Shown here: positions 1-19,137 of the stretch, piece by piece
Position numbering within the stretch: position 1 is the stretch's first letter
How the letters are laid out: the number at the start of each line of letters is the position of its first letter
Source: Kiritimatiellia bacterium
GTDB taxonomy: Bacteria; Verrucomicrobiota; Kiritimatiellia; JAAZAB01
Direction of reading: 5' to 3'
Length of the DNA stretch: 40,695 bases
Assembly: GCA_028715905.1 (NCBI GenBank)
Contig: JAQUQV010000020.1
Location: forward strand, 1-40,695
The notes under the pieces: generated by a model
Told to the model about the DNA's origin: nothing
Database searches by the model: none
Seen by the model: the letters and a program-made list of their open reading frames with translations, nothing else
Made by a program: the position numbers and the translations under genes

Positions 1-2764
1 GCTTGGTCAACGTGCGCTTCTGCAATTGGCTCGCGCTCTCCTCGTCTTTCGGCACAATTCGCGGATAGCGGACAAGGCCGATGTTGGTCTTGCTGTCCAC
101 CGTTGCCTTGTCAATGTACCGATCCCAAGGACCGCCGACCGTGCCGAGGAATTCAAGGATTTCCTCGCGCATCCATTCCGGCGGATTCAGCCAGCGCTCG
201 CGCAGTTCGTTCAATTCCCGTGCCGCTTCTGCAATGGCCGCCTCCTGTTCTGGGGTGGGCATCGGCATCGGAAAGGTTTCAAAGCATGTTGTCGGCGTGT
301 AACGTGGTGTATTTCCACCAAGCACTGTGCCTTGGGCCAAAGCCCACAAATCGTGCAATCTGGATTGCAGGACACCGAAAAAGAAGTCGTCGGAGCGGGA
401 GAAAGCAAATGTGGCGCTGTCCGGCAAAGTCGGGACCCTCAGCCAGACAAAGAGTCGGTGCTTTGAAACGCGGCATGTGCAGAGGAAACGCGAAAGCGGC
501 GCAATGACCTCCCGCATGGCCGGTCTGGCCTCAACATGTTGCCACCATAGTCGTCTGTAAGATTCTCGTGCATTTTTCTCGCGATCGGGTTTGATCTCCA
601 CCCTGATGTATTCGAAAACGGCCTCATACTTGGCCGCCTCGTCATTCGGCATACCGACGCCATAGTCAATGATCCATTTCCCTTTTGGACGTTGGGTCAG
701 GTCCATGCCATTGACCCATGGCACTACAACGTCAGAATTGGGCCGCCCGTGCGGATTTGGCGAACGGAGAAACGCGATTGCCTTCGTCTCTTCGATGTCA
801 AAGCCTCCACCCTTCGTGGTGCCCATGAAAGCGATATTCAGATTGTCGGCTAAAGAGTCCGCCTGCGTGATATCCACCGCGGATGTCAAGTTGGCATTGA
901 TCGTGCCGACCGGCCTGTTGTCGATGATGCGGGTTTTCTCTTCACCGCCGTCGAAGGCAATCAGGCTGACATGAAGGTTTGCACCATCGAGAATCCAGTC
1001 TTTGTCAGAAATAGCCCAGAAAATATCCCCGGATTTCTTAATGCGTTTCAATACTTCCCGGTTTGTACCGCCGCGAATGCCCTGCGTGGCGAGAAGTCCG
1101 GCGCGTTTACAGTTATCCTTTTCAATATGGGAACGTGCTTTCTCAAACCAATAACAGCATAAATCGGCCTCATGCGGCACGTGGTCTTTCCAGACTCCAA
1201 AGAGTTTGTCCATGTATTCATCTCCGAGTTCGCGGCGAAGCATCTTGCCGCCCAAGAACGGCGGATTGCCGACTATAAAATCAATCTTCGGCCATTCCGG
1301 CTCTTTTGGATTCGCCGGATCGGATAAATCCATAATCGCATCCATACAACGGAAATTCCCGGCCATGGGTCGCAGGATGGGATCCTGGGTCACTTGGAAG
1401 CCGTTCGCACGTGTCCACTGTAAAAACCCGATCCAGACCGTCATTTGCGCCAAGTCATGGGCATAGGGATTGATTTCTATTCCGTAAAGTTGCCAGGGGC
1501 CAACCATCGGCAGATAACCGCCGAAACCTTTTTCCATTCCATAAAGGATGACTTCTTTTTCAAGGTCCTTCAGTTTCTGCAAGGTCACATAAAGGAAATT
1601 CCCGGAACCGCAGGCCGGGTCAAGGACTTTAACATTGTGGAGACCGGCAAGGAAGCGATGCAAGATACTGTCGGCCTCGCCGCGCGCCTTGCGTTCGGCG
1701 CCGGGCGATAGTTTTTTCGCCGTGCTTTTATCGGCTTTCTTTTGTCCGCTAATGAGGAGCGTTTCCACAATCTTTTTTGCTTCGTCCCATTCGCGCCGGA
1801 GAGGTTGCATAACGACCGGCTCAACCAGCGTCTCAATATCTTCCCGGCTGGTATAGTGCGCGCCCAACTGAGAACGCTTGGCCGGATCAAGACCGCGTTC
1901 AAACAGCGTGCCGAAGATGGAGGGGTCAACCGCGCTCCAGTCCAGCCGTGATGCGGCGACAACCTGCTTGACTTCGTCTTCGGTCATTTCAATGACGGAC
2001 GCATCGTCAAAAAGATTGCCGTTGAAATGGCGGATGGTATCAAGGCCGAAGTCCCCGCCATTCGCCATTGCCTCAAACAACTGTCGGATGAGTAAACCGA
2101 ACCTTTGCGGGTCGCCGCCGGATTTTTCCACAATCCGCGTAAAAATCATATCAGGCAAGAGGCCGATATCCTCGGCAAAAAGACAGAAAACAAGCCGATT
2201 AAGAAAATGCGCGACTTTTCCTGAATCCAATCCGCGCTTGCGGATGGATTCGGCAATTCCGGCGAACTGCTCCGCCACGGCCCGGGTGATTACTTCGCTC
2301 GTCTTGCCCGGGCGCAGTTTTTCCGGCTCAAAAAATACGGCCCGCATGATTTCTAAACTGCGTGGCTCGCCGAGTTGATCAAGAGCAATTTCGTGAGTTA
2401 CGGAAACCGTTTTCGTGAAGTTCGTATGAACGATAATTCTGTCAAGATCGCAGACCACGAGGAGCGGCGGACTTGCCAACGCGTCGCGGTACAAAAGCAA
2501 CTGGTCGTAAGCGGTGGCAAGGTCCTTGTGCTTGCCCTTGTACTCCCAGCCGAAAAAGTCCTTCTTCCATACGTCGGCGAAACCTTCGCCGCCGCCCTGC
2601 TTGGACGCGCCCTTCTCGAAGCAGAATGTTTCGCCAGTTGGATCGGCCTCGGCGGGTGTCGGATGAGCGAAGACGCGGCACAGGTCAATGAAATGCTCCT
2701 GCGCGGCAGAGCGCTCTTTCAATTCCGCCTTCTTCCACTTGGCTATGAATTCCACAATGTTCAA
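1..2764 (-). CDS. MmeI-like (type IIL) fused restriction endonuclease / adenine methyltransferase, 3' end cut by window edge
   Basis: One open frame runs from a TTG at 2764 to position 1 without a stop, giving about 921 residues; the C-terminus lies outside the window. The N-terminus (MNIVEFIAKWK) matches MmeI-type enzymes, and an in-frame TGA four codons upstream excludes a longer start. GAGG lies four bases before the TTG. Residues 64-78 hold a PD-ExK-like nuclease motif (FADVW...WEYKGK). SAM motif I (DPACGSGNF) is near residue 380 and the N6-adenine motif IV (NPPF) near residue 497, followed by the target-recognition region. In this family one polypeptide cuts DNA and methylates adenine in its recognition site, so no separate methylase is needed, and none is seen here. 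A pure methyltransferase with a dead nuclease is the alternative, but the E-x-K residues are intact. Confidence 0.88.
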   Translation of the reverse strand, partial: MNIVEFIAKWKKAELKERSAAQEHFIDLCRVFAHPTPAEADPTGETFCFEKGASKQGGGEGFADVWKKDFFGWEYKGKHKDLATAYDQLLLYRDALASPPLLVVCDLDRIIVHTNFTKTVSVTHEIALDQLGEPRSLEIMRAVFFEPEKLRPGKTSEVITRAVAEQFAGIAESIRKRGLDSGKVAHFLNRLVFCLFAEDIGLLPDMIFTRIVEKSGGDPQRFGLLIRQLFEAMANGGDFGLDTIRHFNGNLFDDASVIEMTEDEVKQVVAASRLDWSAVDPSIFGTLFERGLDPAKRSQLGAHYTSREDIETLVEPVVMQPLRREWDEAKKIVETLLISGQKKADKSTAKKLSPGAERKARGEADSILHRFLAGLHNVKVLDPACGSGNFLYVTLQKLKDLEKEVILYGMEKGFGGYLPMVGPWQLYGIEINPYAHDLAQMTVWIGFLQWTRANGFQVTQDPILRPMAGNFRCMDAIMDLSDPANPKEPEWPKIDFIVGNPPFLGGKMLRRELGDEYMDKLFGVWKDHVPHEADLCCYWFEKARSHIEKDNCKRAGLLATQGIRGGTNREVLKRIKKSGDIFWAISDKDWILDGANLHVSLIAFDGGEEKTRIIDNRPVGTINANLTSAVDITQADSLADNLNIAFMGTTKGGGFDIEETKAIAFLRSPNPHGRPNSDVVVPWVNGMDLTQRPKGKWIIDYGVGMPNDEAAKYEAVFEYIRVEIKPDREKNARESYRRLWWQHVEARPAMREVIAPLSRFLCTCRVSKHRLFVWLRVPTLPDSATFAFSRSDDFFFGVLQSRLHDLWALAQGTVLGGNTPRYTPTTCFETFPMPMPTPEQEAAIAEAARELNELRERWLNPPEWMREEILEFLGTVGGPWDRYIDKATVDSKTNIGLVRYPRIVPKDEESASQLQKRTLTK

Positions 2765-2850
2765 TGTGCCTCAGCAATCAGACAAGGACAAGGCCGACAA
2801 AGACGCCAAATAAACCGAGCCTTGTTTAAAACTTGGATATGTCTTGGTTC

Positions 2851-2878
2851 ATGCTAGCCGAAACTGTTCAAACGTCAA
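2851..2878 (-). promoter_or_regulatory. Candidate sigma-70 promoter of the MmeI-like gene
   Basis: Read on the minus strand, TTGACG (2878-2873) and TAGCAT (2856-2851) are 16 bases apart, about 80 bases upstream of the TTG start at 2764. The position and spacing are right, but the match is only moderate. Confidence 0.35.
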
Positions 2879-3029
2879 CGCCCAAAACGTATCAACAACA
2901 GGGGGATACAAACGCCGCAGTGCAGAAAAAATGCCCAACGTTCAACGATTCCGGACGGCGGCTATGATGATTTAATCCAGGCGCGAATTCTACCGCCGGC
3001 GTGAAGCAGTTCTATGGAAATTACCTTCC

Positions 3030-3155
3030 ATTCGCAACGCTTTACAAACAGATTCATAGAATGAAACTGTTTTCAGCTTTTGCTCATGCTCGCGCAATCA
3101 TTACGTCGTAAATTCCGTAATCATTGCTTCGCCCCCGAAACCAACTTTTATTCAG
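3030..3155 (-). repeat. Direct repeat copy A: remnant of the 3' end of the Cys-motif gene
   Basis: This stretch resembles 3189-3311, with an offset of about 159 bases. On the minus strand copy A still reads KVGFGGEAMITEFTT followed by a stop. The intact gene ends KVGSGYEAMIAEVMK in copy B. The repeat therefore covers roughly the last 15 codons plus the 3' flank of that gene, which suggests an old tandem duplication, most of which has been lost. Confidence 0.65.
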
Positions 3156-3188
3156 CACTTTTACTTAGCATCGGAAAGACCGCCCAAG

Positions 3189-3311
3189 ATTCGCAACGCC
3201 TATGAACAGATTTGCAAAACAAAACTGTTCTTGGCTTTTGCTCATACTCCGCAATCATTACTTCATAACTTCCGCAATCATTGCTTCGTAACCAGACCCG
3301 ACTTTTAACGC
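3189..3311 (-). repeat. Direct repeat copy B: 3' end and flank of the Cys-motif gene
   Basis: Second copy of the imperfect direct repeat. It contains the real stop codon of the 117-residue Cys-motif protein and about 70 bases downstream. Shared blocks include ATTCGCAACG, a CTTTTGCTCAT block and the GCAATCATTGCTTCG block. Confidence 0.65.
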
Positions 3312-3611
3312 TGTTCCACAACTCCGAAGAATTATGTCACGCCTTTGATGGCACGAATAATTATCCTTCAGACATCCCGGCCTGTATAAAAAAAGTGGAC
3401 AGGCCGGAGCGGTGCAGTCCCGGATAGCGGCGGCATCGAACCCGTTGCATTCAACGCAAAATGCGTTGACGGCGGCCCGAAGGCTCTTTCCCGCGTAGGC
3501 GCGCCGAAACGTGTCCAAATATCGGGGGGCATCCCGTCGCACGTCCTCAAGACGTTTGGCGCGTTTTAACTCGATTTCGCCCGCGCCAGGGCCTCGAATT
3601 GAGGCGCTCAT
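3258..3611 (-). CDS. Small Cys-motif protein (phage-like, putative zinc binding)
   Basis: 117 residues, reading from ATG 3611 (MSASIRG). The frame is open further upstream, but this ATG overlaps the stop of the preceding gene as ATGA, which argues for translational coupling. The centre carries FCVECNG...IRDCTAPACPL, a C-x2-C...C-x4-C-P-L pattern that could bind a metal. Proteins of this look occur in prophage-like and accessory regions of environmental bacteria; no function is known to me and none is claimed. The first half (ELKRAKRLEDVRRDAP) is basic and probably helical. The 3' end is duplicated downstream (3030-3155). It forms a cassette with the HTH gene at 3608-3928. Confidence 0.6.
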   Translation of the reverse strand: MSASIRGPGAGEIELKRAKRLEDVRRDAPRYLDTFRRAYAGKSLRAAVNAFCVECNGFDAAAIRDCTAPACPLFLYRPGCLKDNYSCHQRRDIILRSCGTALKVGSGYEAMIAEVMK

Positions 3612-3928
3612 TGTGCAGCCCCCTCTCCGTGAATCAGCGCGGAAACAGCCGACTCCAAAAATCCGCTTGCCCTTGTATGGCCGGGTAGAATCCTCTTTTC
3701 CAGAATCCCTTTTTTCGCCCAGGCGTCCACACAACGGACAGACACGGCCAGCCGGCGGGCGCACTCGCTGCGGCGAATTAACCTTGATTCCGACGCAGCG
3801 ACATGGACAGGATCGGGTTTCGCCGGGCCATTTCGGAGCTGGACCAGCAGGCGGGCACGGTCGCCGGGTGAAACGGATGGATCGGCCCGGAGCATTGCTT
3901 TCATGGCATCAAACGTTGTCGCTAACAT
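3608..3928 (-). CDS. Small helix-turn-helix protein (excisionase/MerR-like fold)
   Basis: 106 residues. A good ribosome binding site (GGGGGAGGA, seven bases before ATG 3928) supports the start. The N-terminal 30 residues are helical. Residues about 48-80 (RLIRRSECARRLAVSVRCVD, then AWAKKGIL) look like the winged HTH of the excisionase/HTH_17 type, followed by LPGHTRASGFLES, typical of the wing and recognition end. It probably binds DNA, as a small regulator or as a phage packaging or excision accessory factor. It overlaps the downstream Cys-motif gene by four bases and no other phage gene is nearby. The specific role is unknown. Confidence 0.65.
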   Translation of the reverse strand: MLATTFDAMKAMLRADPSVSPGDRARLLVQLRNGPAKPDPVHVAASESRLIRRSECARRLAVSVRCVDAWAKKGILEKRILPGHTRASGFLESAVSALIHGEGAAQ

Positions 3929-4591
3929 AATTTAATCCTCCCCCTTGTATTTCCAAAATTCACCCTCCTTCGCCTCCGATTGGCTTCCTCCTTCGCTCGG
4001 ATAACTTCGGCGGACAAGCCGGAGGGTTTCGCAGAGAGCTTCACTAAATTTTTACACACCTATACTTCAAGCCACCAGCAGGCGGCGCGCTTCGCGCGCC
4101 TGCCTGCCGGAGCCTGATTTCACGCTCAGCCGATTTGACCGACCACGTGTCACATGTTTCTGTCCGTCCTTGACATCGCCAGCCATGAATGATCGCGGCG
4201 ATGATTCGCCTTGATAACTTTCTCCGCCATAAGGCGGATCCGCCCGTGGCGGAAAGACCGACTTGGACAACATCAGAACCGAACCTGCCACCCCACGTTT
4301 TGCGTTTTTACACGTTTTTTAATCTGGGGCCTATATCAGGGGCCGACTCCATCGGCAATTACGACGACGACCCAATGCAAACGATTACCGTAATTTTATA
4401 CCCTGTTCCGGCAGGCCGGACGACAAGAAAAACTGCAAAAGCCCGGCCTTGTCGCTACAATCCAGACGTAATGCCAGGAGCACATCTCCGCATAAGAAAA
4501 CTCAGCGAAAATGTCTCCGGGATTCAAACTTCATGATTTCAACATGATTTTATAATTTTAATTTCAACTTTAACCGTCCCTGGCTTTCGGA
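3929..4591. other. Gene-free stretch with GC-rich hairpins
   Basis: No reading frame here looks like a protein. Visible elements are a strong stem GGCGCGC-TTC-GCGCGCC at 4084-4100, extended by GCAGG/CCTGC flanks with one bulged base; a perfect 12-bp palindrome GGCGGATCCGCC around 4233-4244; and an imperfect inverted repeat near 3985-4025 of the CCTCC...GGAGG type. Such segments resemble interspersed intergenic repeats. One of them could end the minus-strand transcript coming from 6738. Confidence 0.5.
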
Positions 4592-5190
4592 CATCATGTC
4601 CCCCTACTACTAAGAGGAAAACTGTCCCATTTTTTCGTATTTTTTTACATATTCCATTGACAATAAACGTCTTAACCTGTTCCACTTTAGAAGTACCGTT
4701 TCAACTGATATTTTCACCTTTCGCATTACTTCCCGAAAAGACGGTTTTGGATGCCGACATTATGATGTCCCCCTCTACTAATAGGGAAAAATGCGACATT
4801 TTTTCATGTTTTTTTGCATATTCCGTTGATAATAAACATTTTAACCTGCGCCACTTTCGGCGCATCGTTTCAGCCGGAATTTCAACCGTTTCACCGCTTC
4901 ACGAATAGACGGCCGGGATAACAAGCATCATGCCCTCTACTAATAGGATCAAAATGACCATAATTAAGCCGTTTTTTCTTTACATCTAATTGATAACAAA
5001 CGTGTTAATCTGACCAATTTTTAACCGTACTATTTTGGGCCAAAAAAAAAGGGCTTGCCCTGGCTATCAGCCAAAACAAGCCTATAGCCTTCTAATAAGA
5101 AGGCGTTACTTTGAAAGTTACATTTGTAACTTTTGAAGTTACACAAAAACCACCTCGCAAATAAACGGCCGGGGATAAGAAAACATCACG
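4592..5190. repeat. Three degenerate tandem repeats of ~168 bp, AT-rich, non-coding
   Basis: Units begin at about 4596, 4765 and 4930 with ATG(TC)CCCTCTACTAATAG-like blocks, giving periods of 169 and 165. Each continues through a T-rich run, then a TTGAtAAtAAAC block and a TTAACCTG block. Units 1 and 2 continue to a GACGG block before the next ATG. The end-of-unit sequence (AATAAACGGCCGGGGATAAG) reappears at about 5157-5178, so the third unit seems interrupted by roughly 90 bp of palindromic sequence. No spacer/repeat regularity of a CRISPR array and no conserved reading frame is present. Confidence 0.7.
5062..5142. promoter_or_regulatory. Cluster of perfect palindromes with repeated GTTAC/GTAAC boxes
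   Basis: Within 80 bases there are: GGCTAT/ATAGCC (5062-5067 with 5084-5089); GCCTTCT-AATA-AGAAGGC (5087-5104, 7-bp arms); AAAGTTAC-ATTT-GTAACTTT (5114-5133, 8-bp arms); and further GTTAC boxes at 5105-5109 and 5138-5142, so that TGTAACTTT also pairs with AAGTTACA. Such nested dyads could be operators for a dimeric repressor or a structured RNA. The cluster sits inside the third tandem repeat unit. Confidence 0.5.
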
Positions 5191-5322
5191 GGGAAGAAAT
5201 TCATTCAGGGTGTGATCGTCAATCTTGGAGACAACAGCTGGCAGGACAGACACGGTTTGCCGTTACCATGTCAAATGCATGGTTCGCAACTGGAGAAAGG
5301 GACTATTGATACGACAGCATGA
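5179..5322 (+). pseudogene. Possible gene fragment (47 codons), C-terminal remnant
   Basis: After an in-frame TAA (5176-5178), 47 codons are open up to TGA 5320, containing KKFIQGVIVNLGDNS...DRHGLPLP. The pattern of a Gly-Val strand followed by a G-D turn and a Leu-Pro strand recalls the C-terminal tail of DUF4143-type ATPases. There is no start codon in a plausible position and no ribosome binding site. It is convergent with the DUF5678-like gene. The assignment is weak. Confidence 0.25.
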
Positions 5323-5323
5323 A

Positions 5324-5524
5324 TCAATAAATATATTTCTTTAAGGGGTCGTGAGGAAACACGATAAAAGGTTCACGCACACCGGCCTTTTCCGTCTTTT
5401 CAAGCACAGCGGCTAAATTATTACCATGAGCCACAACGGAAGTGTCTTCCACGGATCGCAGAGACACATACCGCGCATAAGGGCAATCAAGTTTGATAAT
5501 TCTCGCTCCGGTTAATTTCTTCAT
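5324..5524 (-). CDS. DUF5678-like small protein
   Basis: 66 residues. The segment YARYVSLRSVEDTSVVAHGN, then LAAVLEKTEKAGVREPFIVF, matches the usual plan of DUF5678 proteins: a strand ending in the display of a value, then VVAxG, a helix, then (E/D)P-h-h-h-(F/Y). The function is unknown; family members are often small partners of other genes. The ATG at 5524 overlaps the stop of the upstream Schlafen-type gene by four bases (ATGA), so the two are translated together. It is complete, ending HDPLKKYIY. Confidence 0.65.
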   Translation of the reverse strand: MKKLTGARIIKLDCPYARYVSLRSVEDTSVVAHGNNLAAVLEKTEKAGVREPFIVFPHDPLKKYIY

Positions 5525-6738
5525 GGTTTATTTTTCCCCGCAGTTACTTTCCAGTATCCGCCTTTTCTGGCTCCCACATGACGGATTAGACCGGCGGTTC
5601 TTAATCGGGTCAGATGCCATTCAATACCTTTTATGGTCAAGCCCGTTGTCTTGGCTAATTCCGACGCCGACATAGCCGGATTTTTTCGCAGTAAAGACAA
5701 TATTTTCACCCTAGTTTCTACCCTGGTCTTCACCCCAGTTTCTACCCTAGTTTTCTCCGGCATTTCTTCAACTTTAGGTTTAAAGAAAGTAACCGATAAA
5801 CCGCCGAATTCCTCTCGAAATTCCGGTTCCGGCAAGCCGGCTTTTTTACAGGCGTCAACTATCTTTGTCGTCCCGCGTCCCCATGCTTCGATCATACCAG
5901 CCTTAAAAAACACATCTGCGAGGAACTCATTCCTTGGTTTGGAAGTATGGAGCTTTTTCAAATCTTCTATCCGGATGCTGGCCGGCAAGCCGCCGTCATT
6001 CCAGAGATTTAAGGTGTCAGGATAAATCTTTAATTGGGTATGCGCGCCAATATAGCTCCGGTGGATCACGGCATTGATCAACGCCTCGCGTAGCGCCTCC
6101 TCCGGATATTCCAGCGTGTCCTTGCGATATATACCTTCATAACTGATGTTTGAAACGAGGTATTTTATCCTTAAAATATCCATTGCTTTTTCTATCTGCT
6201 GAAACAGGTTGCCTTCAACGTTGTCCGTGCTGATAATATCGGTATCGTTGATAAACTTGCCTATTTTAATATATGCGGTTATGTAAAATCGTTTCGGGTC
6301 TTTGCCGAAAAGCAGAATAGCCGCGCGTCTTAAACGCCCGTTTTCAATAAGATTCAACTTTCTAAGAACAACCGCCATGTTTTTCTCGCCTTGTATAAAA
6401 GGAATTCTTTTAACGGCAAGCCTCTTGAATGTCCTGATCGTAGGCATATCTATGTCTTTCAGCGTGGCGCCTTCCTCGAAAAAACCATCCCATGACTTGC
6501 CTGATTTTGTCATTAAAAATTCCGAAAGCTCATGGCCCTTAAGTTCGGATATTGTGCTTCCGCTCCTTGTGTAAAATCGGCCATGGTATGAAATTGGGGC
6601 CGCTGAATAATCAACCTTGATTTCAATAATCGTTTTGCCGTCGCGTTTTTTGGAAGATACTTCCGGCGTAATTCCCAGAATATCCCGCATCTGGCCGGGT
6701 ATATCCGCAAGCATTTTTAATGGTTCTTTAACTCCCAC
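5521..6738 (-). CDS. AlbA_2/Schlafen-type ATP-binding transcriptional regulator, 5'-truncated
   Basis: 405 residues from GTG 6738; AAAGGA lies six bases upstream. The product contains the second half of an AlbA_2 (Schlafen AAA_4) domain (about residues 1-65, ending ISYHGRFYTRSGSTI), the HATPase_c_4-like region (about 200-315: EEALREALINAVIHRSY, WNDGGLP, then EAWGRGTTKIV), and a C-terminal winged helix (about 345-400: MSASELAKTTGLTIKGIEWH). Full-length relatives carry about 50 more N-terminal residues (ExxxxEFK...GxIxxGV). Here the frame just upstream of the GTG still reads KGQIV before a TGA, so the conserved G-x-I-V-G-V strand is split by the current start. It may be a decayed gene or a short functional version. 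It is head-to-head with the next gene, which also lacks its 5' end. A short linker has degenerate TRVE-type repeats (about residues 325-345). Confidence 0.75.
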   Translation of the reverse strand: MGVKEPLKMLADIPGQMRDILGITPEVSSKKRDGKTIIEIKVDYSAAPISYHGRFYTRSGSTISELKGHELSEFLMTKSGKSWDGFFEEGATLKDIDMPTIRTFKRLAVKRIPFIQGEKNMAVVLRKLNLIENGRLRRAAILLFGKDPKRFYITAYIKIGKFINDTDIISTDNVEGNLFQQIEKAMDILRIKYLVSNISYEGIYRKDTLEYPEEALREALINAVIHRSYIGAHTQLKIYPDTLNLWNDGGLPASIRIEDLKKLHTSKPRNEFLADVFFKAGMIEAWGRGTTKIVDACKKAGLPEPEFREEFGGLSVTFFKPKVEEMPEKTRVETGVKTRVETRVKILSLLRKNPAMSASELAKTTGLTIKGIEWHLTRLRTAGLIRHVGARKGGYWKVTAGKNKP

Positions 6739-6782
6739 GATTTGTCCTTTCCGTCACCAACCATCCTTTTACCCAGAAAACA

Positions 6783-7406
6783 ATGATGAAATACGGGTTT
6801 AAAGATTGCGGGATACTGCTTGCCACCGGGCCGACTTCCTGGAAATTCAAGGGCATTGACGATATTGACCAGCGGATAACAGACGCTTTGAGTTTCCGGT
6901 ATATAGTCCCGCCGCAGGCGCTGGATATTTATGCGCCCGCGCATCACAAGTCAATAATTGAAAAATGCTATAAAAACATCGGCGCGGACAAGAACAAGTA
7001 CCTGGTCTCCGTTAAAAAGGCAATTACACCGCTGCCTGAATCAAAAATCGCAACCAAGGTCTACGCGAAAACAGGCGACGCGGAAATATGGATAGAAAGT
7101 TACGGGGCGGACATCGCAAAGGAACTCAGGAAAATACTGAATGATTTATGCAAAAAACATATTGCCGTTATAAATCTTTATTTGAAACTTGAGGATCCGG
7201 CCACTTGCTTTATGACCGCCGAGCTGGAAATGCTCGGCTTCTTTTTCGCCGGCATACTGCCTTGCACCTACATGGGCGACGCTTTAATATTACAGTACCT
7301 TAATAATGTTCCGCTGGATTACGGCAAAATTATCGTTTATACGGACATGGCCAGAGAATTATTGAATTATATAAAAAGCAGCGACACCACCCTGGTCCCG
7401 GCGTGA
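6783..7406 (+). CDS. GNAT-like acetyltransferase fragment, 5'-truncated
   Basis: 207 residues from ATG 6783. The frame upstream of this ATG is open back to TAA 6729-6731 and reads SVTNHPFTQKT, conserved-looking sequence without any start codon, and no ribosome binding site precedes the ATG. The body (GFKDCGILLATGP; PPQALDIYAPAHHKSIIEKC; LEMLGFFFAGILP; GDALILQYLNNV) resembles the C-terminal half of bacterial proteins that join a GNAT-like fold to an ATP-binding or acyltransferase module. The gene has therefore probably lost its 5' half. It lies 10 bases upstream of the deacetylase-family gene and probably shares its transcript. Whether the remnant is functional cannot be told from sequence. 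Confidence 0.5.
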   Translation: MMKYGFKDCGILLATGPTSWKFKGIDDIDQRITDALSFRYIVPPQALDIYAPAHHKSIIEKCYKNIGADKNKYLVSVKKAITPLPESKIATKVYAKTGDAEIWIESYGADIAKELRKILNDLCKKHIAVINLYLKLEDPATCFMTAELEMLGFFFAGILPCTYMGDALILQYLNNVPLDYGKIIVYTDMARELLNYIKSSDTTLVPA

Positions 7407-7416
7407 ATAAAACCGT

Positions 7417-8454
7417 ATGACTCATGGTAAAATCATGCTGGTTGTCAAAAATTTAAAACACGCCCTGCATGCTCCCAAGCAGGAATTATCCGTGCCGCAC
7501 ATGGTGCCGATTCCTTACTTTGAATCTCCGATGCGCATCGCGCAGATAGAAAAAGCGCTGGCGCGGATGACCGGATTACAATATTGCGAACCCGACGCCG
7601 CGGGTCCGGAGATATTGCGAGGAATCCACGCCAAGGAATATATAAGTTATATAGAAAAAGTCGGGAGAATGGCAATTGACGACGAAGATTACCGGACTCC
7701 ATTTGTGATCCCGCCGCGGACGCGCACCTTCAATACCTCCCATATGATTGACCACCTGGCGTTGTTTGCCATGGATACCACAACCCCCATCGGCCGGCAC
7801 ACTTTTACGAGCGCGCTGCATTCCGCTGCGGTGGCCGCCACTGGCGCGCGGAAAATATTGAACGGCGAGAAGAAGGTGTATTGTCTATGCCGGCCGCCGG
7901 GACATCATGCAGAACCTTCCCGCTATGGAGGCTACTGTTATTTTAACAACGCAGCGGTCGCGGCGGAACAATTACTTTTAAAAACCGCAAAAGTCTCAAT
8001 ACTTGACATAGATTATCATCATGGGAACGGCACACAGGAGATTTTTTATCGCCGCAATGATCTTCAGTATGTTTCCGTGCACGCGGACCCGCGCATTGAT
8101 TATCCGTACTATACGGGTTTTAAAAATGAGCGCGGCCAGGGGCGGGGACTTGGGTTTAACCTCAATCTGCCCGTGCCCAAGGATACGGGCGATAATGAAT
8201 ATTTAACATTTATTGAACAAGGCCTTACGGCGATCGGCAAATTTAAAGCCGAAATGTTGATCGTTTCGCTCGGCGTGGATACTTACACGGTTGATCCCGT
8301 CGGGGCGCTAAAATTGTCGCAGGAAGTTTTCGGGGACATCGGGTGTTTGATAAAGCAGATTAACCTGCCCGTCCTTGTCCTGCAAGAGGGGGGATATAAT
8401 GTCCGCGATATCGGGACGCTGGTTTCCAATTTTCTAAAAGGCTTGGGCGTTTAA
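7417..8454 (+). CDS. Histone deacetylase / acetylpolyamine amidohydrolase family protein
   Basis: 345 residues, full length for the family. The catalytic set is complete: RPPGHH at 159-164 (the His pair), DIDYHHGNG at 197-205 (zinc ligands D199 and H201), D288 in SLGVDT (third ligand), and Y327 in EGGY. HADPRIDYPYYTGF follows the zinc loop as in acetylpolyamine amidohydrolases. It would remove acetyl groups from small amines or lysines in the cytoplasm with Zn2+. SLGVDT replaces the more common SAGFDA. The ATG at 7417 was used, although M7 (7435) aligns better with the usual N-terminus (MLVVKNLKHALH). It follows a GNAT-like gene by ten bases, which suggests an acetylation/deacetylation pair, though the partner appears truncated. 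Confidence 0.88.
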   Translation: MTHGKIMLVVKNLKHALHAPKQELSVPHMVPIPYFESPMRIAQIEKALARMTGLQYCEPDAAGPEILRGIHAKEYISYIEKVGRMAIDDEDYRTPFVIPPRTRTFNTSHMIDHLALFAMDTTTPIGRHTFTSALHSAAVAATGARKILNGEKKVYCLCRPPGHHAEPSRYGGYCYFNNAAVAAEQLLLKTAKVSILDIDYHHGNGTQEIFYRRNDLQYVSVHADPRIDYPYYTGFKNERGQGRGLGFNLNLPVPKDTGDNEYLTFIEQGLTAIGKFKAEMLIVSLGVDTYTVDPVGALKLSQEVFGDIGCLIKQINLPVLVLQEGGYNVRDIGTLVSNFLKGLGV

Positions 8455-8571
8455 ACGTCTCAATGCACGGCGCAAAAATATATTTGCTTTTTATTGAAAA
8501 ATGTATTTAACTGCGTGTTGCATTGTCCGGATATAACCGGACGTTGCGCGGAATTCAACGGGAAGCGCAGC

Positions 8572-9342
8572 ATGAAACGTTTTTTGTGCGTCATAGGTTT
8601 AGCCGCCGCCGTCATGTTCCTGCCGGCGTGCCGAACCATTTCATCTTTGTCCGGCTCAGGGGCAAAAGCCCTGATGATCGGCGTTTCGCCCAATTACCCG
8701 CCGCTTATGTTCATGCAAAACGGCGGGATCGCCGGCGCGGAGGTTGACCTGGCTTCGGAACTCGGCAAGGCGCTCAACCGTCCGGTCCGTTTCCTGCAAG
8801 TCAGGTGGGACGACCAGATTGACACCCTCCTCGCGGGACGAATTGACATCATCATGTCGGGAATGACCATCACCGCCGCGCGCAAGGTGCGGATTGCGTT
8901 CAGCGACCCTTACCTCCAGCTCGGTATCATGCCGCTGGTCCGCACGCGTGACGCGGCAAAATACTCATCGGCGGAAAAAATCATCAACGGCGACGCCCGG
9001 ATCGGCGTTGAAAGGGGTTCCACGGCGGACGTCTTCGCCAACCGCAGCTGCCGCTCAACTTCAATTTCCTACGTCCAGCCGATTGACGCCTATTTCTTCC
9101 TTGTCAACCGCCGGATTGATGTTTTCCTGCACGACGGCCCCGGCGTGATCTGGCTGGCCGCAAAACACGAAGCGGACCTGCAGGCCATCCGCTTGCCGCT
9201 CACCAGGGATGACATCGCGTGGGGACTGCGCAAGGACGACACGGAGCTGCTGGCCGCGGTCAACCGCGCGCTTGCCGCATGGAAAAAAGACGGAACCCTG
9301 CAGAAAATTCTGGATAAATGGCTGCCGACCGAACGAAATTGA
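8572..9342 (+). CDS. Extracellular solute-binding lipoprotein, family 3 (amino-acid type)
   Basis: 256 residues from ATG 8572, preceded by GGAAG at a six-base spacing; the open frame extends upstream to 8494 but the signal peptide begins here (MKRFLCVIGLAAAVMF). FLPAC is a lipobox, so the mature protein is anchored by a lipidated Cys. SBP family-3 landmarks are IGVSPNYPPLMF, GAEVDLASELGKAL, IDIIMSGMTIT, RKVRIAFSDPY and GVERGST. No permease or ATPase gene is adjacent, so it is an orphan binding protein or serves a distant transporter. A small inverted repeat (GTCCGG/CCGGAC, 8525-8542) lies in its leader. The next gene is another small lipoprotein. Confidence 0.85.
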   Translation: MKRFLCVIGLAAAVMFLPACRTISSLSGSGAKALMIGVSPNYPPLMFMQNGGIAGAEVDLASELGKALNRPVRFLQVRWDDQIDTLLAGRIDIIMSGMTITAARKVRIAFSDPYLQLGIMPLVRTRDAAKYSSAEKIINGDARIGVERGSTADVFANRSCRSTSISYVQPIDAYFFLVNRRIDVFLHDGPGVIWLAAKHEADLQAIRLPLTRDDIAWGLRKDDTELLAAVNRALAAWKKDGTLQKILDKWLPTERN

Positions 9343-9404
9343 TGCGGGCATAAACTGAAGCCGGATTCATGTAACCGGGAAACATTACTGAGAGGAGAAT
9401 GGCA

Positions 9405-9797
9405 ATGAAAATAACGCGCGTGTCGGCACTGTTTTTAACGGCTATCATCGTCTGGACGGCGGGCTGCCAGTCAACGCCTCCTCCCAAACCGATCGCCACG
9501 TTAACCATCAACGACAAAACGGAGTTCACGAAAGAGATTAGCGCCACCGTTACGGCCGACCAGAAAATCATCATGGACGGCAAAAAATACGAAGTGGCCG
9601 ACATCCCGCAACAACTGGCGCTGAGGAAGGTCGGCCAATACATCACCATCATGGTCTATCCCGAGTCAAAACTTACGCGCGAAACATTGACGGAGATGGT
9701 GAACGTGATGGTTTCCAACAATTATTTCGTCGCCATGGGCAACGATTCCCGGTATGCCGACATTGCCATCCCTCCCCCTCCAAAAACCCAAAAATAA
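9405..9797 (+). CDS. Small lipoprotein with ExbD/TolR-like periplasmic segment
   Basis: 130 residues. Two ATGs compete: 9399 lies directly after AGAGGAGA, while 9405 is at normal spacing and is preferred. The signal sequence ends IVWTAGC, a lipobox. The mature part (ATLTINDKTEFTKEISATVT; YEVADIPQQL; ITIMVYPESKLTRETLTEMV) has the strand-helix alternation of the ExbD/TolR periplasmic domain, and VYPESKL...LTEMVNVMV is the best match. There is no transmembrane anchor of the ExbD kind and no exbB nearby. The C-terminus is Pro/Lys-rich (PPPPKTQK). Function unknown. Confidence 0.6.
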   Translation: MKITRVSALFLTAIIVWTAGCQSTPPPKPIATLTINDKTEFTKEISATVTADQKIIMDGKKYEVADIPQQLALRKVGQYITIMVYPESKLTRETLTEMVNVMVSNNYFVAMGNDSRYADIAIPPPPKTQK

Positions 9798-9825
9798 ACG
9801 CCGGCCGCAGATGGAGAATATCCGC

Positions 9826-9841
9826 GCCCCCGTTCGGGGGC
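9826..9841 (+). other. GC hairpin just before the DUF2723 gene
   Basis: GCCCCCG-TT-CGGGGGC forms a tight stem. No T-tract follows, so it is not a classical terminator. It lies 12 bases before ATG 9853 and may shield the ribosome binding region or mark the end of the upstream lipoprotein transcript. Confidence 0.4.
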
Positions 9842-9852
9842 CTTCTGAAGAT

Positions 9853-12795
9853 ATGAACAACCCGGGGAAACAGGATAAACGCGGCGGCGATCAGCCGCCG
9901 GCGGGACAAAATCTTGCCGCTCCGGACCCCTTGTTTCGCATCAACGACTGGCTGGCGTTTGCCGTGGCGTTTGCGATAGCGTTGTTTGTCTTCGCCTGGA
10001 CTCTGGCGCCCACGGTTACGCTGGAAGACTCGGGCGAGCTGGTGGTGGCCGCCGATTACTTGGGCGTGCCGCACCCGCCCGGTTATCCCATCTGGACCAT
10101 GCTGGCCTGGCTTTTCCAGGCAATCTTCGGCTTTATGCGCTATTACGGCCAGCCGAATCCGGCCTGGGGCGTGAATTTCATGTCGGCCTTTTTCGGGGCC
10201 TTGCTTGCGGGCAACGTGGCGCTCCTGATAAGCCGTTCCGGCCTGGACATGCTGCAGTTCCGGCGCCACGAGGAAAACCAACCTTCCACCGGCAACGAAA
10301 AAATCATCAGCTGGGCCAGCGGCGTTTCGGCGGGATTGCTCCTGGCTTTCTGCCCCTACATCTGGTCCCAGGCGGTCATCGCCGAGGTCTATACCCTCAA
10401 CGCCTTCCTGCACGTTTTGATCATGACCCTCCTCTACGCCTGGATGCGGCGACCGAAATCCAGCCGGATTCTTTACTGGATGGCGTTCACCTTCGGGGTT
10501 ACTTTTACCAACTGCCAGCCTGTTATTCTTCTGGTCCCGGCCATTATCCTGGTTCTCTTTGCGACCGACCGGAAACTCTGCCGCGACTGCGTGGCCGGCG
10601 GGTTGATTATTGTCGGCGCGTTTATCCTGTTTTCAATATTTTTACCGCAGTACGCGGTCCGGCCATTTGAGCCGAAGGAACGCTGGATTTTTATCGCCGC
10701 GCTCATGCTGGTTGCGCCGGGCGTCATGTTTGTCTTTACGCGCGAACTTTTTACCGAGTGGCGGCGGGTGCTGGCCATGGCGCTCTGCGCGGGCCTGGGG
10801 ATCAGCCTCTTCGTTTACCTGCCGATTGCCTCAGAGTTCAATCCGCCGATGAACTGGGGTTATCCGCGCACCTGGGAGGGCTTCAAGCACGCCGTCACCC
10901 GCGGACAGTACCAGGCCCTCTCGCCGGCGTTCAAGCCCCTGGATTTCATCAAGCAATCATACGAATTCTTCAGCCAGCTTGAAGACCAGTTCCCTTTCCC
11001 GATCGCTTTCCTGGCCATTGTGCCGGTTTTTTACTTCCGTTATATCTGGCGGAGGAATTGGGCCTGGCTCTCGGGGTCAATCATTGCTTTTGCCTTCATG
11101 GGGCCGGGCATGATGGTGATTCTGAATCCACCGCACGACGTGCAATCGCTTTTCATCGCCGAGGTGCAGTTTGTGCAGTCAACTTCCGTTTATGCAATCT
11201 GGCTGGGGTACGGGCTGCTCTTCGCCCTGGCTTTTCTTGAAAGCGTGTTTTCGCGCAAGATGATGCTCATAGGCGCCATCGCGATAACCTTGTTGCTGCC
11301 GCTTTCGCTCATCTGGCAGAACCGCTATGACGACAAAATCATCAATTCAACCGGCGGCAATGAACAACGCGGCCATGATTTCGGCTGGCAGTTCGGTAAT
11401 TACCAGCTGCGCGGGATAGACGCCATCATGGAAGAACTGCGTCCCGGCGAAACGCCCCCCCCCAATCCTGAATATCCGCCTGAAATGGGGACGAACGCCA
11501 TTTTCTTCGGCGGCACCGATCCCGGACGGTTTGTGCCCACCTACATGATTTACTCCGCCCGGGTGCGCTCGGACGTTTTCCTGATCACGCAGAACGCTCT
11601 GGCCGACAACACCTACATGAACGTGATGCGCGACCTGTACGGCGACCAGATCTGGATTCCCACGCCCCAGGACACCAACCGCGCTTTCCAATCCTACGTG
11701 GAAGACGTGCGCGCCGGACGCATCCCGGCCAACGCCGCCGTCAGCATTGACAAGAACGGCAAGGTGAGCGTGCAGGGCGTGCAGGGCGTGATGGAAATCA
11801 ACGGCATCATCAGCAAGGCGATCTTTGAGGCCAACAAGAGCAAGCATCCCTTTTATGTTGAGGAAAGCTATGTGATCATGTGGATGTATCCCTACCTGGA
11901 ACCGCACGGGTTAATCATGAAAATCAATCCCGAACCGCTGCCGGCTCTGACCCCGGAAATGATCAAGAACGACATGGATTTCTGGAACTGGTATGCCAAC
12001 CGCCTGCTGAGCGATAAAAAATTTGAAAGGGACACCGTGGCGCGCAAGTCCTTTTCAAAACTGCGCTGCGCTATTGCCGGGCTTTACGCCTACCGCCGCC
12101 TGTTCAACGAAGCCGAGGCAGCTTTCCGCCAGGCCGTCAATCTTTTCCCGGGCAGTCCCGAGGCCAATTTCCGCCTCGCCGATCTTTACCTCCAGAACAA
12201 CCGTTTCGCCGATGCGCTCAGCGTGATGGAAAAGAATCTTGAATGGGACCCGCGGAACGACAGAATAGTCGGCTTTATCAACCAGATCAGGGACATGGAA
12301 AAAATGCACAACCGGATCAATGAATTGCAGCAGGAGCTGGCCGGCGGGGGTGGAACGCTGGACCATGTCCTGGAACTGTCCATGCTGTATTTGCGGTCCA
12401 ACCGGGACCAGCCGTTTGCCGATTTGTCCCGGCAGGTCTTGAACAATACCAGCCTGCCGCCGCAAATCTGCCTGAAAGTCGCCGAGATAGCAATGTCGGT
12501 CCAACCCCAGCGCCTCGGCATGGTGGCGGAAGCATATCAGCATTATCTGGCGCGCGAGCCTTCCGATCCCAGGATCTGGCACGAACTGGGCTGCGTGCAG
12601 GCCGCGATCGGCCAGCCCAGCAATGCCCTGCATTCCCTGCAACAGGCCGTTGCCCTCGGCGGCGAGCCCATCAAAGACGTTATGCGCAAAGACCAGCGCC
12701 TGGAACCGTTGCGCGTTTCGCCTGTTTTTCAGAAACTTGTCGCCCCCGCCCCGCAGCGCGGCTTTACGCCGTTCCCGGGAATTGTGCCTCCTTAA
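9853..12795 (+). CDS. DUF2723 (TMEM260-like) membrane glycosyltransferase with TPR tail
   Basis: 980 residues from ATG 9853 (MNNPGKQDKRG), chosen because a hairpin at 9826-9841 lies between this ATG and earlier in-frame ones at 9754 and 9811; the ribosome site is weak (GAAG). After a short cytoplasmic tail come about a dozen hydrophobic segments. The first loop carries the DUF2723 signature TLEDSGELVVAADYLGVPHP, then PGYP, with the acidic pair typical of GT-C enzymes. Eukaryotic TMEM260 is a protein O-mannosyltransferase; bacterial members probably also use lipid-linked sugars, but the acceptor is unknown. From about residue 720 the protein is soluble, with TPR-like helices (AIAGLYAYRRLFNEAEAAFR; SPEANFRLADLYLQNNRFAD). 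It is convergent with rsmE. Confidence 0.8.
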   Translation: MNNPGKQDKRGGDQPPAGQNLAAPDPLFRINDWLAFAVAFAIALFVFAWTLAPTVTLEDSGELVVAADYLGVPHPPGYPIWTMLAWLFQAIFGFMRYYGQPNPAWGVNFMSAFFGALLAGNVALLISRSGLDMLQFRRHEENQPSTGNEKIISWASGVSAGLLLAFCPYIWSQAVIAEVYTLNAFLHVLIMTLLYAWMRRPKSSRILYWMAFTFGVTFTNCQPVILLVPAIILVLFATDRKLCRDCVAGGLIIVGAFILFSIFLPQYAVRPFEPKERWIFIAALMLVAPGVMFVFTRELFTEWRRVLAMALCAGLGISLFVYLPIASEFNPPMNWGYPRTWEGFKHAVTRGQYQALSPAFKPLDFIKQSYEFFSQLEDQFPFPIAFLAIVPVFYFRYIWRRNWAWLSGSIIAFAFMGPGMMVILNPPHDVQSLFIAEVQFVQSTSVYAIWLGYGLLFALAFLESVFSRKMMLIGAIAITLLLPLSLIWQNRYDDKIINSTGGNEQRGHDFGWQFGNYQLRGIDAIMEELRPGETPPPNPEYPPEMGTNAIFFGGTDPGRFVPTYMIYSARVRSDVFLITQNALADNTYMNVMRDLYGDQIWIPTPQDTNRAFQSYVEDVRAGRIPANAAVSIDKNGKVSVQGVQGVMEINGIISKAIFEANKSKHPFYVEESYVIMWMYPYLEPHGLIMKINPEPLPALTPEMIKNDMDFWNWYANRLLSDKKFERDTVARKSFSKLRCAIAGLYAYRRLFNEAEAAFRQAVNLFPGSPEANFRLADLYLQNNRFADALSVMEKNLEWDPRNDRIVGFINQIRDMEKMHNRINELQQELAGGGGTLDHVLELSMLYLRSNRDQPFADLSRQVLNNTSLPPQICLKVAEIAMSVQPQRLGMVAEAYQHYLAREPSDPRIWHELGCVQAAIGQPSNALHSLQQAVALGGEPIKDVMRKDQRLEPLRVSPVFQKLVAPAPQRGFTPFPGIVPP

Positions 12796-17862: not shown

Positions 17863-18705
17863 ATGACGGAAATCACAGCAGCATCAGTGAAGGCATTACG
17901 CGATGAAACCAACGCCGGCATGATGGAATGCAAGCGGGCCCTGGGCGAGGCGGGCGGCGACAAGGCCAAGGCGCTTCGCATTCTGCGGGAAAGAGGCATC
18001 GCCATCGCCGAAAAAAAATCGTCCCGGGCCGTTAATCAGGGCGTAATTGCCGCCTTTATTGCCGAAAGCGGGAAGGCGGGCAGCTTGATTGAGGTCAACT
18101 GCGAGACAGATTTCGTGGCCAAAAACGACGGCTTCCGTTCCTTTACCGCCAAACTGGCGGAAAAGGCTGCGGCCATGGACAACAGCCTGGCCGAAGCGGC
18201 CAAAACGGATGTTACCGCCAAGATTGCGGAAATAGGCGAAAACATCGTTGTCCGCCGCAATATCCGTTTTGTCCTGCAAAAACCCGGCATTATTGCCGCC
18301 TACATCCACCATGGCAGCGCCATCGGCGTTCTCGTGGAACTGAATTGCGCTAAAAACGATACGGCCTCAAAACCGGCTTTCAATGATCTGGCCAAAGATA
18401 TCTGCCTGCAGGTTGCCGCCTCCCAGCCGCGTTTTCTGGACCGCGCAAGCGTGCCCCCCGCCGTTACCGCCGCGGAAAAGGAAATATTCGCGAAACAGAT
18501 AACCGGCAAACCGCCGCAAATAGTGGAAAAAATCGTGGAAGGCAAACTCGGCAAGTTTTATGAGCAGGTCTGCCTCCTGGAACAGCCTTTTGTGAAAGAC
18601 CAGGATAAAAAGATCGCATCTTTGCTGGCGGAAAAGGAAAAAGAACTGGCGGATGAGATAAAAATCGTAAGATTTGCCAGGTTCCAGACGGGCGAGGCGC
18701 TTTAA
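17863..18705 (+). CDS. tsf: Elongation factor Ts
   Basis: 280 residues. The UBA-like N-terminus (ITAASVKALRDETNAGMMEC, then KRAL) and the GDP-exchange motif NCETDFVAKNDGFR are clear. The dimerisation half (IIAAYIHHGSAIGVLVELNC) and the LLEQPFVKD...VRFARFQTGEAL end are typical. It recycles EF-Tu-GDP. GGGAGGAG lies nine bases before ATG 17863. It is co-transcribed with rpsB and followed by the PUR protein gene after 39 bases. Confidence 0.96.
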   Translation: MTEITAASVKALRDETNAGMMECKRALGEAGGDKAKALRILRERGIAIAEKKSSRAVNQGVIAAFIAESGKAGSLIEVNCETDFVAKNDGFRSFTAKLAEKAAAMDNSLAEAAKTDVTAKIAEIGENIVVRRNIRFVLQKPGIIAAYIHHGSAIGVLVELNCAKNDTASKPAFNDLAKDICLQVAASQPRFLDRASVPPAVTAAEKEIFAKQITGKPPQIVEKIVEGKLGKFYEQVCLLEQPFVKDQDKKIASLLAEKEKELADEIKIVRFARFQTGEAL

Positions 18706-18744
18706 GCCATGCTGTTTAAATTACTTAAAAAAGGGGGCAGGGCC

Positions 18745-19041
18745 ATGAGGAGAAACCTGGGAAAACAAGGCCCGGAGGATTTGCGCAAAGAACAGGAACA
18801 GTATGGAAACATGCGTCCGGACAGAGTCCGGACGGATAAGATGATTTTAAGCGAACGCCTGCAGATTGAAAGAAAACACTTCTTTTTTGACTTCAAGGAA
18901 AACGCCAGCGGCCGCTTTTTGCGGATTACCGAGGATGTCGGGGGACATCGCGACACTATCATTATCCCCGCCACCGGCCTGAATCTGTTCCGGGAAAGCC
19001 TTGACCATATTATTGCCGTTGATTCTAAAATAAAGTCTTAA
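18745..19041 (+). CDS. PUR-family single-stranded nucleic-acid-binding protein
   Basis: 98 residues from ATG 18745, which has AGGGGG seven bases upstream; an earlier in-frame ATG at 18709 has no ribosome site. Residues about 33-90 (LQIERKHFFFDFKENASGRF, LRITEDVGGHRDTIIIPATG, FRESLDHII) form one PUR repeat as in the bacterial DUF3276/Pur-alpha group, which dimerises to bind ssDNA or RNA. It is preceded by a basic, Gln/Glu-rich tail. Being downstream of tsf it is probably part of the translation operon; an RNA-binding role is plausible but not shown. Confidence 0.85.
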   Translation: MRRNLGKQGPEDLRKEQEQYGNMRPDRVRTDKMILSERLQIERKHFFFDFKENASGRFLRITEDVGGHRDTIIIPATGLNLFRESLDHIIAVDSKIKS

Positions 19042-19059
19042 AAAAAGGTTGCTTTTTTA
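19039..19059 (+). terminator. A/T stem after the PUR gene
   Basis: TAAAAAA(A)G-GTTG-CTTTTTTA, with a run of six T in the 3' arm, begins at the stop codon. It is a weak A-U stem but correctly placed to end the rpsB-tsf-PUR transcript. Confidence 0.35.
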
Positions 19060-19137
19060 GGAGAAAGCGATTAGAATTAAGTAATTATTAGAATAACTGC
19101 GGAAATTGCATAAAATAATTATTAAAGGCCCTGGCTT

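Follow-up and report, generated by a model that had tools for sequence, protein, structure and literature searches.

At one point in a draft Kiritimatiellia genome, two genes on opposite strands meet head to head, and neither appears to have a 5' end of its own. Are these two short genes or two broken ones, and, if they are broken, what brought them together? The stretch of DNA analyzed here in full (the window; 40,695 nt, forward strand) is contig JAQUQV010000020.1 (C20) of the Kiritimatiellia bacterium assembly GCA_028715905.1, a draft in 141 contigs that is 96.18% complete. The features that bear on the question are as follows, with all coordinates referring to the window:

2 to 2764, minus strand: a Type IIG restriction-modification gene that runs off the end of the contig
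3016 to 5153, no strand: a dispersed-repeat stretch of decayed phage-like DNA, in common with contigs C1, C2 and C40 of the same genome
5324 to 5524, minus strand: a small DUF5678 gene behind the minus-strand remnant, with related DNA on contig C1
5521 to 6750, minus strand: a remnant of a Schlafen AlbA_2/HATPase_c_4/winged-helix regulator, with about the first 55-60 codons missing and a possible GTG start at 6738
6747 to 6753, no strand: the junction, where family similarity ends for both genes, with zero filler bases
6750 to 7406, plus strand: a C-terminal remnant of a HATPase_c_2-GNAT fusion protein, with about the first 280-290 codons missing and the first ATG at 6783
7417 to 8454, plus strand: a histone-deacetylase-family gene directly behind the plus-strand remnant

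The minus-strand open reading frame runs from the GTG at 6738, its first start codon, to 5521 (405 codons), and is preceded in frame by K-G-Q-I and, before these residues, by R and a TGA at 6754-6756. The encoded protein matches HATPase_c_4 (1.3e-22) and winged-helix families. It thus retains the same HATPase_c_4 and C-terminal winged helix as the regulators that combine Schlafen AlbA_2 (PF04326), HATPase_c_4 (PF13749) and a winged helix; unlike intact regulators of this kind, the window copy is without the first half of AlbA_2, and the family search found no SLFN_AlbA_2 match in it. Relatives from other genomes of the class align from the first or second residue of KGQIV (6745-6750). Two relatives, L009 and L010, are 40-43% identical to the minus-strand protein, show an SLFN_AlbA_2 match over 106 residues each, and carry 62 and 53 codons, respectively, upstream of the break position. 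Among the 20 relative loci (L001 and L009-L027), at least 41 codons were found upstream of this position in 19; the remaining one, L018, represents a gene that is broken as well, with a match that begins only at residue 203. Since four of the 19 (L021, L022, L023 and L027) have a different N-terminal part instead of AlbA_2, these upstream codons show only that there is no start at the break position. A first-pass annotation made from the sequence had proposed that the Schlafen-type gene starts in the middle of its AlbA_2 domain, with KGQIV still legible upstream of the GTG, and both the reading frame and the full-length relatives confirm this.

The plus-strand open reading frame extends from the ATG at 6783 to 7406 (207 codons) and is preceded in frame by SVTNHPFTQKT, which contains no start codon; the frame is open back to 6732. 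No Pfam or NCBIfam family matched the encoded protein, and genome contigs scanned with it as a single protein yielded no relatives. The homologues considered here come from a scan of named genomes and represent the best 80 of 118 loci; four of them (L041, L051, L107 and L114) are cut by a contig end, leaving 76 with room upstream. The relatives have open frames of 496-572 codons, and their last ~215 residues align over the length of the window copy, which is 36-56% identical to its homologues (best 80 of 118 loci) over this conserved part. In L003, L004 and L005, which are full length, a HATPase_c_2 (RsbW-like ATPase) domain is followed by a GNAT domain. As judged from these alignments, what is left of the plus-strand gene encodes ~220 residues from the C-terminus of a fusion protein of ~500 residues (RsbW-like HATPase_c_2, GNAT and a C-terminal domain), with the break located within the GNAT domain. 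The N-terminal HATPase_c_2 is absent from the window copy. Also missing is the RGQG region, which we take to be GNAT motif A and which sits upstream of the break in the relatives; the RGQG motif binds acetyl-CoA. With neither the ATPase domain nor the GNAT half that bears this motif, the remnant is not expected to have acetyltransferase activity. The first-pass annotation had described a GNAT-like gene beginning after SVTNHPFTQKT without a start codon; the missing start held, and the family assignment could be refined, as the relatives carry HATPase_c_2 as well as GNAT.

The lengths of the homologues point the same way. At least 275 codons separate the first possible start from the onset of similarity in 75 of the 76 homologues with room upstream (best 80 of 118), and the exception, L106, has 109 codons and keeps the GNAT half; none of the 76 is as short as the window copy, which leaves the proposed truncation standing, as does the match between the residues upstream of both starts and full-length family members. 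The structure of the retained part was predicted with confidence (mean pLDDT 89.9) from an alignment in which the window sequence was combined with those of 49 of the 80 loci. Fold matches of this model were weak and GNAT-like (best E 4.5e-4, TM 0.32), and a search of solved structures by sequence gave two weak matches.

Alignment of both proteins to full-length homologues, which the first-pass annotation had suggested as a check, placed the break at 6747-6753: similarity to the families starts on both strands within about six bases, and no filler DNA lies between. On the plus strand, agreement between window and family begins with the serine codon at 6750 and continues to the right. In a count over 84 rows (the 80 loci and four context loci, where L031, L032 and L033 are duplicate genomes already among the 80 and L051 is out of register), the columns from 6750 hold A or S in 70/84, V in 78/84, T in 64/84, N in 63/84 and H in 83/84 rows; five codons before this serine, the family has G in 81/84 rows and the window has P. 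On the minus strand, clear similarity reaches as far as the glycine of KGQIV (6745-6747), and the lysine (6748-6750) occupies a variable site. Over the retained parts, BLAST E-values reached 1e-76 (L003) and 6e-68 (L004) for the plus-strand gene and 2e-97 (L009) and 4e-80 (L010) for the minus-strand gene. Given these E-values and the fact that both sets of alignments end at one common place, the shared stop is, on sequence comparison, more than chance. A double 5' truncation at one point is therefore supported, and the earlier proposal that both genes lost their 5' parts within the same ~50 bp is borne out over a narrower interval. The same proposal spoke of two genes fused by their bodies, which is true of the DNA only: the frames are read in opposite directions, and a fusion protein is therefore not produced.

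The 301 bases around the junction (6600-6900) occur only once in the genome; the top match elsewhere is 16 bp long (E 0.7) and does not lie at the junction, and two further matches, of 14 and 19 bp, reach the junction, both with an E of 8.5. No direct repeat was found at the junction, no tRNA gene was found in the window, and a scan for promoter-like sites over 6238-7942 revealed none, with no more hits than chance. Neither the junction DNA nor the minus-strand protein matched viral contigs. Site-specific integration at the junction was rejected, as neither a tRNA gene in the window nor a direct repeat there was found, and is also unlikely in that an element's own end would hardly be expected within a conserved domain.

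Among the events that the first-pass annotation had listed (a deletion, an inversion or an assembly join), we favor a single deletion that joined the bodies of two divergent genes, and consider this a probable, if not a firm, explanation. The Schlafen regulator on the minus strand and the HATPase-GNAT gene on the plus strand would have been divergent neighbors, and the loss of no less than ~1.0 kb in one deletion would have taken both 5' ends. Lost with it would be the first ~55-60 Schlafen codons, the intervening DNA and the first ~280-290 HATPase-GNAT codons; the minimum size, as estimated from the relatives, is made up of ~0.16-0.19 kb of Schlafen and ~0.84-0.87 kb of HATPase-GNAT sequence, with the intervening DNA extra. 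No inversion is needed, because the two genes already are divergent. As both reading frames are undamaged as far as the junction, the event either happened recently, was tolerated or is an artefact; a true deletion may have been either of the first two, given that both remnants are still open. Its effect would be a minus-strand gene without half of AlbA_2 that keeps HATPase_c_4 and the winged helix. The native 5' control regions of the two genes are probably lost too, and perhaps also that of the deacetylase gene which follows the plus-strand remnant. Pairs of genes truncated by a deletion in accessory DNA are a known kind of event, and the present case shares with them two genes cut at one point, the absence of filler and accessory DNA on one side. 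If it is real and no assembly artefact, it has no feature that distinguishes it from such pairs. Three observations speak against a deletion: the proposed earlier neighborhood was found in none of the 80 homologue loci, nor was any relative of the minus-strand protein (best 80 of 118); the composition changes near the junction, and a misjoin would give the same picture; and remnants undamaged right up to the junction also fit an artefact.

The lost halves were looked for in the genome's own assembly with two profiles, each built from three sequences of relatives. Profile A1, for the missing HATPase-GNAT half, matched only an RsbW-like open reading frame on contig C7, and there the ATPase part alone; this frame adjoins a small one that by eye resembles a STAS gene. 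Profile A2, for the missing AlbA_2 half, matched only another Schlafen gene on contig C9 and gave one match with an E of 0.59 on contig C27, which was dismissed as it lies opposite a long open reading frame and is at chance level. The missing 5' halves of both genes, which the first-pass annotation had suggested might lie elsewhere in the genome, were thus not found by these searches of the 96.18% complete assembly. The evidence for their absence is strong, and not absolute, owing to this level of completeness; it counts against an inversion and, with less force, against a misjoin.

The main alternative to a deletion is an assembly chimera, a join made by the assembler between two sites, from this one genome or from related strains, that no cell has side by side; we consider it unlikely, while giving it real weight. 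It would account for a break in the coding sequence of both genes with frames intact up to the break, for a shift in composition close to the junction, and for the position of the junction only 6.7 kb from the contig end in a draft of 141 contigs. In one benchmark (PMC9661791), misassembly breakpoints fell mostly in coding sequence, a pattern which the present breakpoint fits, and repeats were called the main contributor to misassemblies, whereas the junction is without a repeat. Moreover, an assembler join would leave the true continuations of both genes elsewhere, and neither is in the 96.18% complete assembly.

The DNA to the left of the junction also bears on such a join. Compared with 200 chunks of 2 kb from the same genome (20 stretches, 400 kb sampled), chunks of this size within 1-7000 rank in the lowest 0-1.5%, and those within 6001-10000 at 15-42%. 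The G+C content is 0.41-0.45 over 4501-7406, as compared to a sample mean of 0.56, so that both remnants share the low G+C. There is another composition dip in the window at 18-21 kb, and composition alone was therefore given little weight. A stray foreign contig end, first suggested by composition, was rejected on two grounds: DNA of the left flank is also present on three further contigs of the genome, and the restriction gene at 2-2764 has counterparts in genomes of the same family (G006, G001 and G002) at 64-71% identity, with 71% for G006. Pieces of the left flank were found on C40 (490 bp at 92% and 110 bp at 96%), C2 (about 290 bp at 87% and 105 bp at 88%) and C1 (245 bp at 89% and 49 bp at 94%). 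Because these pieces recur at 87-96% identity on three other contigs, the left flank is, by its sequence, accessory and partly phage-derived DNA of the same lineage, which speaks against a foreign contig end. Accessory DNA of this sort, with its restriction gene and decayed phage-like pieces, is where one would expect a deletion like the one that we favor. The stretch at 3016-5153 contains an open reading frame with an excisionase-like HTH (3608-3928). On C2, the pieces (G000:C2:84000-91100, L172) adjoin a gene of the Zot family and a replication gene with a weak G2P-type match (PF23343, E 2e-4, below the cut-off), and an inovirus-like prophage is consequently the likely source of the C2 pieces.

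The shared pieces, of about 50-490 bp, lie at 3016-5153 and 5285-5529 in the window; C2 and C40 have 462 bp in common at 97%, and the window itself contains duplications at 3047-3307 and 4593-4947. In the dip further along the window, the segment at 18501-21000 has an AT skew that reaches the extreme value of 0.68, and its tetranucleotide profile is atypical.

An inversion or translocation, by which the gene bodies were brought together and the 5' halves placed elsewhere, possibly joined to each other, is very improbable: although a region rich in dispersed repeats makes rearrangement plausible, neither 5' half was found in the assembly and the orientation of the genes does not require an inversion. 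That both genes naturally start here as short forms of their families is extremely unlikely: the GTG at 6738 does have an AAGGA-like stretch six bases upstream, but no ribosome-binding-like stretch precedes the ATG at 6783, family similarity extends beyond the start codon of each gene to end at a single shared point, and, with no homologue beginning there (0/76 with room; best 80 of 118) and the shorter L106 keeping the GNAT half without the ATPase part, natural short starts were rejected.

Under a deletion, then, the locus is an ordinary local accident of genome decay and no new system. For annotation, both open reading frames should be called partial, neither being a new short Schlafen regulator nor a new GNAT, and the gene order across 6747-6753 should be used only after a read check of the contig. 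It is very doubtful that both remnants are still expressed and selected, as an AlbA_2-less Schlafen regulator from the GTG at 6738 and a free-standing C-terminal domain of the fusion beside a deacetylase; if so, the deletion would have turned two broken proteins into two shorter working ones.

The right flank, by comparison, looks native, since the order of plus-strand gene and deacetylase gene is seen in other loci. Of the 77 loci that extend for 1.1 kb or more beyond the homologue (best 80 of 118), 13 have a deacetylase-family gene after it, with gaps of 2-21 bp in 12 loci and 223 bp in one. HATPase_c_2 (PF13581) and GNAT fusions of ~500 residues were found in MAGs titled Bacteroidetes, Deltaproteobacteria, Verrucomicrobia, Acidobacteria and others. 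Like these fusions, the plus-strand remnant keeps the C-terminal ~215 residues, and some of the fusions likewise have a deacetylase-family neighbor; unlike them, it has neither the ATPase domain nor the RGQG half of GNAT. The architecture of the intact relatives is of interest in its own right, as it combines an RsbW-like ATPase and an acetyltransferase in one protein, and in some loci a deacetylase-family gene follows immediately. It is possible that the family provides partner-switch control of protein acetylation. A literature search on the HATPase_c_2-GNAT fusion architecture found nothing that addresses it, which could still be in print.

Several minor observations on this family were made. 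Its conserved C-terminal part (L042, L045, L047 and others) has no Pfam name. Another homologue shortened at the 5' end is found in L106 (about 2300-3327), where the GNAT half is kept, the ATPase domain is missing and in-frame stops lie upstream. A STAS-like gene is present in 13 of the 72 fusion loci with room upstream (best 80 of 118); it lies directly upstream in L057, L058 and L062, and elsewhere, even downstream, in other loci.
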